Part shown: positions 23,379 to 63,092 of the stretch, in pieces
Numbering within the stretch: the stretch's first letter is position 1
Layout: each line of letters opens with the position of its first letter
Origin: Rufibacter latericius
GTDB lineage: Bacteria; Bacteroidota; Bacteroidia; Cytophagales; Hymenobacteraceae
Assembly: GCF_003721515.1 (NCBI RefSeq)
Contig: NZ_RJJD01000001.1
Span: forward strand, 682,001 to 746,000
DNA length: 64,000 nucleotides
Reading direction: 5' to 3'
Notes under the pieces: generated by a model
Database searches by the model: none
What the model was told of the DNA's origin: nothing
Seen by the model: the letters and a program-made list of their open reading frames with translations, nothing else
Made by a program: the position numbers and the translations under genes

Positions 23379-23413
23379 GTTTCAAGGGTGTTTTCTGGAA
23401 AACAGGCCTAAAA
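23379..23413. repeat. Dispersed intergenic quasi-palindrome, copy 9
   Basis: GTTTCAAGGG, TTTTCTGGAAAAC, AGGCCTAAAA. It lies in a divergent gap, one of the few copies with no stop codon nearby. Confidence 0.55.
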
Positions 23414-29970: not shown

Positions 29971-30003
29971 TTTACCCCTGTTTTCTGAAAAACAGCCCCA
30001 AAA
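29971..30003. repeat. Dispersed intergenic quasi-palindrome, copy 10
   Basis: TTTACCCCTG, TTTTCTGAAAAAC, AGCCCCAAAA. It ends four bases from the rsmG stop codon (minus strand) in a convergent gap. Confidence 0.55.
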
Positions 30004-30007
30004 TGAT

Positions 30008-30649
30008 TTACGCAGTCGGATGCAGCGGCACGTACACCACTTTCTTCGTCTCAAAGAACTCTTCCTGGAAATAGCTGCTCAAGTCAAACACCTCGTGTAT
30101 CAATCCAGACTCCGCTAGTTCTTCAGTTAAGTCGCCGCCTTTGAGGTAGTACAGTCCTTGGTTGGGCACTGATTCCTTTTTGTAGCTGAACTGAATCCAC
30201 TGGTAAAAGGTAGCCAATCTCGCTACGGCCCGGCTGACAATGAAGTCATACTTTTCATGCACCTGCTCAGCGCGGGTGTGGGTGGCTTTCACGTTGTGGA
30301 GGCGTAATTCCTGGGCAATCTCCTGCACCACATGAATCTTTTTGCCAATGGAGTCTACCAGGTGAAACTTCACCTCGGGGAACAGAATGGCCAAAGGCAA
30401 ACCTGGTAAGCCGCCGCCGGTTCCTACGTCCATCACCGAAGTTCCTGCCGGAAACTGCACCACTTTGGCAATGCCTAAAGAATGCAGCAGATGGTTCACC
30501 ATCAGATTATCCATGTCCTTGCGGGAAATCACGTTGATTTTGGAATTCCACTCGACATACAGCTCCGCAAGCCGCGCAAACTGCTGCTGTTGCTCTTGGG
30601 TGAGGCCGGGGAAGTAGTGAAGTAAGATATCGGTGGAGGTTGGGTTCAT
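30008..30649 (-). CDS. rsmG: 16S rRNA (guanine-527-N7)-methyltransferase RsmG
   Basis: SAM-dependent methyltransferase of 213 residues that modifies G527 of 16S rRNA. Family features are VEWNSKINVISRKDMDNL (about 31-48), the SAM-binding loop VMDVGTGGGLPGLPLAI (about 68-84), FHLVDSIGKK, and VSRAVARL. Length is normal. It stands alone on its strand; a 352-base gap with a repeat element separates it from the upstream sigma factor gene. Confidence 0.95.
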   Translation of the reverse strand: MNPTSTDILLHYFPGLTQEQQQQFARLAELYVEWNSKINVISRKDMDNLMVNHLLHSLGIAKVVQFPAGTSVMDVGTGGGLPGLPLAILFPEVKFHLVDSIGKKIHVVQEIAQELRLHNVKATHTRAEQVHEKYDFIVSRAVARLATFYQWIQFSYKKESVPNQGLYYLKGGDLTEELAESGLIHEVFDLSSYFQEEFFETKKVVYVPLHPTA

Positions 30650-30768
30650 AGGCTCAAAGATACTAAACGGAGTTCTGATTCCTGAGTTTGTCAGAGTGCT
30701 GCAGCACTCGTGTTCTTTTTTAAGCTTGTTTTTATAAAAAGGGCTAAAAAGCGTCCATGTTGTACATG

Positions 30769-30886
30769 CCGCAAGTTTGAGCGCAGCGGTAACTTGTGGC
30801 TTTTCTTAACAGCCAGTTTGTAACTGGCGCCAGTTGAAAACTGGCAAAAAGGCACCCACAAGTTACCGCTGTGCTCAAACTTGCGG
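30769..30886. repeat. Cloverleaf-like extragenic repeat, element A
   Basis: Two 31-base arms (30769-30799 and 30856-30886) are complementary except for one mismatch. Inside lie two adjoining perfect hairpins of 17 bases, GCCAGTT-TGT-AACTGGC (30812-30828) and GCCAGTT-GAA-AACTGGC (30829-30845). Folded, this is a long stem topped by two short arms. It looks like a non-autonomous palindromic repeat (REP or MITE type). Confidence 0.75.
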
Positions 30887-30937
30887 GATTTAACTTTTGT
30901 GTTTACAACCCACTTTCAGCAAAACAGCCTATAAACA

Positions 30938-30966
30938 CAGAAAGCAGCCACATGGGCTGCTTTCTG
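30938..30966 (-). terminator. Hairpin downstream of the sigma factor gene
   Basis: A perfect 12-base-pair stem CAGAAAGCAGCC / GGCTGCTTTCTG with a five-base loop, 36 bases past the stop. The following T tract on the minus strand is weak. Confidence 0.55.
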
Positions 30967-31001
30967 CTAACATTTCAATTTAAAATCTTAAACGCTTGAT
31001 C

Positions 31002-31610
31002 CTAGATCAGGTGCTTTTTGTTTTTCACCATGTCATAGAGCAACTCGCGGGCGCGGTGCAGTTGGGCCTTTACGGTTCCAAGCGGGGCGCTGAGTTCAGT
31101 GGCGATTTCCTCGTAAGAGAGTTCATCAAAATAACGAAGGGTAACCAGGCGCTGGTACTTATCGGGCAGTTTGCTCACGATGTACTGCATGATCTCAATC
31201 TTCTGGTTTTTAATGGCGCTCTCCTGCGGGTTCAGGTTGTTGTCTTTGAAATCAATGGTGATCTCGTCGCCGTTGTCGATCTTGATGGCTGAGTCAATGC
31301 TCATGGTCTTGATCTTGTTCTTCCGGATGAAGTCAATACAGTTGTTGGTGGCAATTCGGAACAGCCAGGTACTGAAGGCGTACTCCGGGTTGAATTTGTG
31401 CAGGTTGCGGAAGGCTTTCGCGAAAGCTTCAATGGTGAGGTCCTCCGCATCATCTGCGTTGCGCACCATCTTAAGAACCACGTGGTAAACCGGCTTTTTG
31501 TAGATCTGCATCAGCTCGGCGTAGGCCTTCTCATCTCCGTCTTCTACAGCTGACTGGATCAGTTTAAAATCGTGTTTCGCTTTCGCGGAGAATTGTTTAT
31601 TTACTTCCAT
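31002..31610 (-). CDS. ECF-type RNA polymerase sigma factor
   Basis: Sigma-70 family protein of 202 residues lacking regions 1 and 3. Region 2 spans about 25-95 (ADDAEDLTIEAFAKAFRNL, then FSTWLFRIATNNCIDFIRK). Region 4 spans about 145-197 (LPDKYQRLVTLRYFDELSYEE and APLGTVKAQLHRAREL). No anti-sigma factor lies beside it. Its ATG overlaps the last ten bases of the upstream glycosyltransferase gene, indicating translational coupling. It may be a lineage-conserved Bacteroidota ECF sigma, but I cannot say which regulon it serves. Confidence 0.92.
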   Translation of the reverse strand: MEVNKQFSAKAKHDFKLIQSAVEDGDEKAYAELMQIYKKPVYHVVLKMVRNADDAEDLTIEAFAKAFRNLHKFNPEYAFSTWLFRIATNNCIDFIRKNKIKTMSIDSAIKIDNGDEITIDFKDNNLNPQESAIKNQKIEIMQYIVSKLPDKYQRLVTLRYFDELSYEEIATELSAPLGTVKAQLHRARELLYDMVKNKKHLI

Positions 31611-46026: not shown

Positions 46027-46103
46027 AGTTCTGAGTCTTGAGTTCTGGGTCCTGAGTCTGTGCAAGATTTTGACTCAGAACTCAAGACTCAAGACTCAGA
46101 ACT
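46027..46103. repeat. Long imperfect hairpin between atpD and atpC
   Basis: Arms of 32 bases, 46027-46058 and 46072-46103, match at 28 positions. They are built from the low-complexity words CTGAGTC and TTGAGT and their complements. The right arm ends eight bases before the atpC ATG. Confidence 0.75.
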
Positions 46104-46416: not shown

Positions 46417-46451
46417 TTTTACGGCTCTTTTCAGGAAAACAGGCCTTAAAC
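46417..46451. repeat. Dispersed intergenic quasi-palindrome, copy 16
   Basis: TTTTACGGCTC, TTTTCAGGAAAAC, AGGCCTTAAAC. It follows directly behind the atpC terminator. Confidence 0.55.
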
Positions 46452-62753: not shown

Positions 62754-63092
62754 AACTCAGTTCTGTCACAAGCGAATTTTTCACTTTCTCTGTCTTTTAT
62801 CCCCAACTAACTGCCTCTCATTGCGGCGGGCTGGATGAATATATTCTGGTCCGGATTCCTAAAAAACAGTTCTTTTCAGGAAAACAGGCATTAAACAGGC
62901 TCCTTCTCTCTTCTTCCTCCCTCCTAATTCCTCCACCTAGGTTCGTAGCTAACTCCTGTTTCTGATTTCGATGGCCATAGGGGTGTCACGGCAGTTACCT
63001 GTCTTAGAGAGCAGCCATGGTTCAACAAACACCCGGCTTGCTTCCTTCAAGGCGCAAATACTGTCTATCACTCACCCTATATCCCTACATGT
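62754..63092. other. Gap before the OmpA-family-like gene
   Basis: 339 bases with a degenerate quasi-palindrome (about 62860-62896) and low-complexity CTTCCTCCCTCCTAATTCC. No gene or clear promoter seen. Confidence 0.55.
62860..62896. repeat. Dispersed intergenic quasi-palindrome, copy 23
   Basis: CTAAAAAACAGTTC, TTTTCAGGAAAAC, AGGCATTAAAC; the left part is degenerate. Confidence 0.4.

Follow-up and report, generated by a model that had tools for sequence, protein, structure and literature searches.

An inverted two-hairpin repeat of Rufibacter latericius, probably a REP doublet of Hymenobacteraceae RAYTs

RAYTs and their repeats

REP-associated tyrosine transposases (RAYTs) are a leading example of domesticated bacterial transposases, and the biochemistry considered here covers only groups whose REPs carry a GTAG tag. 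The RAYT enzymes of E. coli and S. maltophilia cut between C and T (PMC8266576). RAYTs with REP doublets are a known kind (PMC2817692, PMC3116915). In the REPINs and BIMEs of Pseudomonas and E. coli, two inverted palindromic units, each a single hairpin of 20-40 nt, form one long hairpin between genes; these repeats occur in hundreds of copies, are paired with a RAYT, show compensatory changes and diverge together with it (PMC3116915, PMC2817692). Untagged repeats are known from the Bacteroidetes, where those of RAYT subclass 2.6 (Bertels group 5) have been published as 'atypical' and reported without GT[AG]G (PMC6006769). The main text of that paper gives no anatomy for them, and no published anatomy was found in the open-access literature, a search outside which lies the paper's supplement, where some of the repeats are listed.

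Two further systems are close. In TIRtrons or TIRYTs, long inverted repeats, some of which are double palindromes, enclose a RAYT-like gene, and copies are dispersed; the examples in the parts of PMC3733652 considered here come from other phyla and have unrelated sequences. In IS200/IS605 elements (IS608, ISDra2), subterminal hairpins are recognised by a Y1 HuH transposase, with the cleavage site outside the hairpin.

The repeat described here is of a kind already known from these accounts. It shares with REPINs and BIMEs the inverted intergenic units, the RAYT pairing, the compensatory changes and the co-divergence, but differs in its unit of about 60 nt with two hairpins, in its lack of GT[AG]G and in its copy number of about a dozen. 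Like IS200/IS605 ends it has hairpins with a putative cleavage site outside them; unlike those ends it has two hairpins per end, and there is no sign of a unit transposing with its gene.

A folded element built from two inverted units

The window, the whole 64-kb stretch of R. latericius DNA analysed, has as its longest inverted repeat a 118-base element at 30769-30886. It sits in a 352-base gene-free gap (30650-31001) between two minus-strand genes, one for an ECF sigma factor and one presumed to be rsmG-like. The arms (30769-30799 and 30856-30886) form a 31-bp stem in which one pair is not Watson-Crick, and the head consists of two abutting hairpins with identical stems (Table 1). Folded as DNA, the element reaches -53 kcal/mol against a shuffled mean of -18.3 (sd 2.75; z -12.6), and none of 200 shuffles was as stable. 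A first-pass annotation of the sequence had described a 31-bp stem with one mismatch, carrying two adjoining 7-bp hairpins, in a gap without genes, and in these respects it was accurate.

Table 1. Features of the element and its neighbours in the window
Feature	Position	Strand	Basis
AT dinucleotide next to left hairpin foot, candidate cleavage dinucleotide	30766..30767	+	[C/A]T conservation; putative role by analogy to cleavage between C and T (PMC8266576)
Left arm hairpin: foot GCCG/TGGC (with G.T wobble), stem CAAGTT/AACTTG, bulged loop TGAGCGCAGCGGT	30768..30800	+	foot-pair covariation and conserved wobble, 134 non-redundant units
Spacer, left arm hairpin to left inner hairpin	30801..30811	.	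sequence
Left inner hairpin GCCAGTT-TGT-AACTGGC	30812..30828	+	fold; 7-bp inner hairpin in 189/206 units
Right inner hairpin GCCAGTT-GAA-AACTGGC, abutting the left one without linker	30829..30845	-	sequence, fold, linker comparison
Spacer, right inner hairpin to right arm hairpin	30846..30854	.	sequence
Right arm hairpin, repeating the left arm in inverted orientation; foot, read in the hairpin's own direction, CCCG/TGGG	30855..30887	-	sequence, comparison of halves
AT dinucleotide next to right hairpin foot	30888..30889	-	sequence
ECF sigma factor gene, neighbour upstream of the element, not part of it	31002..31610	-	99-100% protein identity across genus; synteny anchor
rsmG-like 16S rRNA methyltransferase gene (presumed), neighbour downstream, not part of it	30008..30649	-	synteny anchor

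Comparison with related copies changes how this architecture is to be read. The building block is a unit of about 60 nt made of two hairpins, an arm and an inner one, which occurs twice, inverted, in each full element. Across 206 units the order is constant: [C/A]T, a 4-bp foot, the stem CAAGTT/AACTTG, a bulged loop with a small apical stem, a spacer of about 10 nt and a 7-bp hairpin. The 7-bp hairpin is found in nearly all of them, against 9-19 in shuffles, with the proviso that inner-hairpin pairing figures are biased, the units having been selected for that hairpin, whereas the foot figures are unbiased. From the arm core to the start of the inner hairpin the distance is 13-15 nt in 178 of 189 units.

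Foot variants (GCCG/TGGC, ACCG/TGGT, ACTT/GAGT, CCCG/TGGG and GGTT/GACC) arise through paired changes. Foot position 4 is Watson-Crick in 117 of the 134 non-redundant units, against a shuffled mean of 43.7, and in the same units pairing just outside the foot is at chance level. The innermost foot pair, by contrast, is G.T or T.G in 122/134 and Watson-Crick in just 9/134, a fixed wobble reminiscent of the bulge that E. coli REPs need (PMC8266576). The family consensus moves the hairpin feet of the window copy to 30768 and 30887, with an AT dinucleotide beyond each. [C/A]T stands next to the foot in 191/206 units (background 0.179), and information drops to background a few bases beyond it, which marks the end of the element. 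GT[AG]G, the tag of canonical REPs, was found 5' of the hairpin foot in none of the 206 units. One candidate for a hidden guide, the stem GTGG present in 117/206 units, was discarded, because it forms part of the foot pairing and compensatory changes put GAG or GAC in its place. The base at -6 (preceding the T) is weakly linked to the inner-hairpin loop base (association z 8.4), and this may reflect subfamily structure.

The two halves of an element need not match. Among 64 full elements, those whose feet differ between halves keep both of their own hairpins in 34 of 39 cases at foot position 2 and 40 of 48 at foot position 4. Since the halves often differ and each nevertheless mostly keeps its own pairs, it is the two-hairpin unit, and not the long stem, that is conserved. 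The first-pass annotation had taken the long stem as the structure, a view that must be given up: in most full elements the halves are unequal while the hairpins within each half stay paired, and the 31-bp stem is thereby rejected as the functional unit. The same observation weighs against a DDE-transposase MITE, in which long terminal inverted repeats would be accompanied by target-site duplications. An inverted-repeat architecture of 118-150 nt between genes is what such a MITE would present, but the ends here are separate hairpins, different in sequence in most elements and internally paired all the same; information is at background a few bases beyond the foot; and the associated gene encodes an HuH-Y1 protein. 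We give a MITE origin hardly any credence.

Dispersed copies, linker forms and orthologous loci

The R. latericius genome (5.67 Mb, 23 contigs) holds about 8 complete and 4 partial copies between genes, with differing flanks. Besides the window copy, the complete ones start at C16:130763, at C17:380616, 381458, 381652, 389911 and 391338 (diverged), and at C13:202633. Matches occur in 26 of 59 genomes searched (this one and relatives), mostly in the same genus and also in further genera of the same family. The compared genomes include R. hautae (G003), R. glacialis (G015), R. sediminis (G010), R. psychrotolerans (G002) and Rufibacter sp. SYSU D00344 (G014), and outside the genus Sabulibacter ruber (G011), Adhaeribacter rhizoryzae (G031) and Pontibacter arcticus (G034); among those compared, the RsmG of the window genome is closest to that of R. 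hautae (97%). An exact arm-core pattern, run against 84,980 species, matched 65 stretches, nearly all in Rufibacter, Sabulibacter, Pontibacter, Adhaeribacter and Botryobacter, and also in Dawidia and some MAGs. The repeat family occurs throughout the Hymenobacteraceae. The element is multicopy and conserved in relatives, with the varied flanks that the first-pass annotation had proposed looking for. Canonical REPs exceed 100 copies per genome, and the dozen or so places occupied here are few for a REP family, which is a point against reading the element as a RAYT repeat.

The gap between the two inner hairpins takes discrete values: 27 nt in 21 elements, 0 nt in 14, 30 nt in seven and seldom anything else. 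The window copy belongs to the 0-nt class, and its cloverleaf look arises because, without the linker, the two inner hairpins fold separately. The name 'cloverleaf-like', given in the first pass, therefore suits the short form and not most relatives, which have a 27-nt linker; the double-hairpin head, then called unusual, does consist of two abutting hairpins, but is a by-product of the missing linker. In this genome the gap is 0 nt in every complete copy measured; sister species show 27-28 nt in their orthologues of the window and C13 loci (L001, L002, L003, L005 and L006 compared with L044, L088, L092, L095, L096, L117, L119, L125 and L127). At C13 the short copy adjoins a decayed long copy without its left arm. 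Parallel loss, conversion or replacement are possible sources of the 0-nt forms.

Several copies lie at common positions across related species, so many of them are old and vertically inherited. A search for empty sites at three loci gave no clean filled/empty pair; at least two of the copies there occupied positions that other species share, and between species the intergenic sequence has diverged too far for a junction to be placed to the base. Nor was any transposition event observed. At the place orthologous to the window locus, the 27-nt form is present in R. psychrotolerans, R. hautae, R. sediminis, S. ruber and strain SYSU D00344. Elsewhere that place holds a decayed copy (G001), one half (G008), a collapsed palindrome (G009), or either nothing or other palindromes.

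Persistence at this locus in several relatives, between two same-strand genes and with strong hairpins that show compensatory changes, is also what a conserved structured RNA of the sigma factor-rsmG region (a 3' UTR element, terminator or small RNA) would produce. That reading is very unlikely. The two-hairpin unit recurs at many unrelated loci and beside RAYT genes, and its compensatory changes track a DNA transposase clade, not one RNA locus. At the rsmG-sigma locus itself, other species of the genus have a degraded, halved or collapsed form of it or none, while the sigma protein remains 99-100% identical. No Rfam family matches at gathering score (best 30.6 bits against 55); just two sub-threshold plant miRNA models match, as any long hairpin may. 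Further, the sigma gene appears to have its own terminator, a separate hairpin at about 30939-30966 that is kept in orthologues. With dispersed copies and no Rfam match at gathering score, a conserved RNA was rejected.

Other palindromes populate the same regions. Across L087-L109 the rsmG-sigma gap ranges from 154 to 675 bases between conserved flanking genes and contains many unrelated palindromes that vary by species, for example GTACGGACAGGTCGCGACCTGTCCGTAC in R. glacialis. A second, commoner palindromic repeat in the window, around CTGTTTTCNNGAAAACAG, has 14 matches with up to three mismatches (0.57 expected), for example at 2413-2430, 23388-23405, 29978-29995, 46425-46442 and 62870-62887; it often has longer GGCC/TTTAAAC arms and is found in intergenic gaps of relatives too. 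A 32-base inverted repeat of AGTTCTGAGTCTTGAGT-type units lies at 46027-46103, and similar GAGTTCTGAGTC runs occur upstream of rsmG in relatives.

Association with RAYT genes and its meaning

The genome carries a single PF01797 gene, a RAYT, at C17:380803, and no further related RAYT gene was found in it. Copies of the repeat flank this gene: upstream lies one complete copy (27 nt), and downstream a lone arm with two complete copies. R. glacialis and R. hautae carry intact orthologues of the gene, of 183 and 182 aa; the intact orthologues P0001 and P0002 score 93.3 and 96.3 bits with the curated NCBIfam REP_Tyr_transpos model, whose cut-off is 80. Both HuH histidines are present in 71/71 aligned sequences and the catalytic tyrosine in 69/71. 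The first-pass annotation had suggested a non-autonomous palindromic element mobilised in trans by a RAYT or an IS200-type transposase. The RAYT link is supported by the dispersed copies and by the RAYT that they flank; mobilisation in trans would follow by analogy. With the NCBIfam IS200 model the Rufibacter-type protein scores 26.7 bits, below the cut-off of 55.

In its features this protein agrees with subclass 2.6 as set out in the main text of PMC6006769: it is from the Bacteroidetes, has 183 residues against 179 and an HuH-Y distance of 83 against 82, carries the WQ (W124-Q125), YIH[QN]NP (here YIHQNP) and SS (here YSSA) motifs, and is flanked by structures that lack GT[AG]G and have copies elsewhere in the genome. 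A small departure is the HuH motif, SHVH in the Rufibacter-type clade against NH[LIV]H. A further mark of the subclass is an insertion of 21 residues between alphaC and beta4. To that account, which gives no repeat anatomy in its main text, the present data add the two-hairpin unit, the G.T wobble, the [C/A]T at the foot and the discrete linker lengths.

Repeat and RAYT diverge together. Of 70 RAYT loci examined, 60 have an inverted repeat common to both sides of the gene that is better than those of ten shuffles. With repeat type, in six labels, mapped on a tree of 69 RAYTs from relatives, 9 changes were required against a shuffled mean of 38.5, and none of 200 shuffles was as low. RAYTs with the window's repeat type next to them fall in a single region of the tree (13 of the 14 rows in a grouping with weak support, together with the outlier L275), and other clades carry other palindromes (GCGTAGAGTTAGCG..., TGGCGCGAG..., TGGCGCGGAAG... 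and GAGTCTGGAGACTC). In a sister clade (L061, L063, L064, L065, L270 and L271) the RAYT gene lies between two units, 39-46 nt and 38-59 nt away. This placing of one unit 38-59 nt from each gene end resembles TIRtrons in the account of PMC3733652, whereas in the main clade the gene's neighbours are complete doublets.

We therefore hold, with considerable confidence, that the element is a non-autonomous, REPIN-like REP doublet of a Hymenobacteraceae RAYT of subclass 2.6 (group 5). The full element presents two opposed units of about 60 nt. The RAYT is a single-strand nuclease of the HuH type with a single catalytic tyrosine, and it would most likely recognise the unit as folded single-stranded DNA, cut at the [C/A]T beside the foot and rejoin the ends, and elements could thereby be copied or exchanged in trans. 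The conservation of [C/A]T is only suggestive of a RAYT cleavage site; that site and the strand used are predicted by analogy with the characterised enzymes, and the mobility of the family is likewise presumed.

Not every genome fits this pairing. Several, such as G008, R. sediminis and S. ruber, hold copies without a RAYT of the matching clade, a point against the RAYT reading. In R. latericius an in-frame TAG interrupts the gene where P0001 has residue 97, between the HuH (60-62) and the tyrosine (145), as seen in one assembly; the parts on either side are 76-85% identical to the orthologues. As this is the only related gene found in the genome, the repeat family here is probably without a working enzyme, and its copies, that of the window included, are probably static relics now, in a family presumably inactive in this strain. 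About 3.4 kb from the RAYT on the same contig lies a gene (L045:9719-13042, minus strand) for a 1107-aa reverse transcriptase with a C-terminal nitrilase domain, whose best PADLOC match is RT_UG5-nitrilase (DRT) at 784 bits.

The broken RAYT, the copies in genomes without a matching one, the low copy number and the positions common to several species would suit ancestral REP-like repeats kept for a host role, such as binding gyrase, IHF or a nucleoid protein or protecting mRNA ends, with the RAYT link historical. This we regard as unlikely: the positions are not universal, copies decay, shrink or are absent in sister species, and a host role leaves the co-divergence of repeat type and RAYT clade unexplained.

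Returning to the RAYT-linked doublet, we speculate that the site recognised by group 5 RAYTs is single-stranded and composite, made of two hairpins, that their cut at [C/A]T is chosen without the GT[AG]G guide used by biochemically studied RAYTs, that the sister clade is near the autonomous ancestor, and that the 118- and 147-nt doublets are internally deleted derivatives; the link between the -6 base and the loop may represent a different guide. This extension is tentative, and we lean against it as it stands.

A Bacteroidetes RAYT repeat known earlier just as 'atypical' is now resolved, from 206 units, into kept hairpins, an element end and fixed outside bases. Site choice without GTAG thereby becomes directly testable with an oligonucleotide of about 66 nt and a protein of 183 residues, and the Rufibacter set offers a natural case of RAYT decay with leftover repeats.
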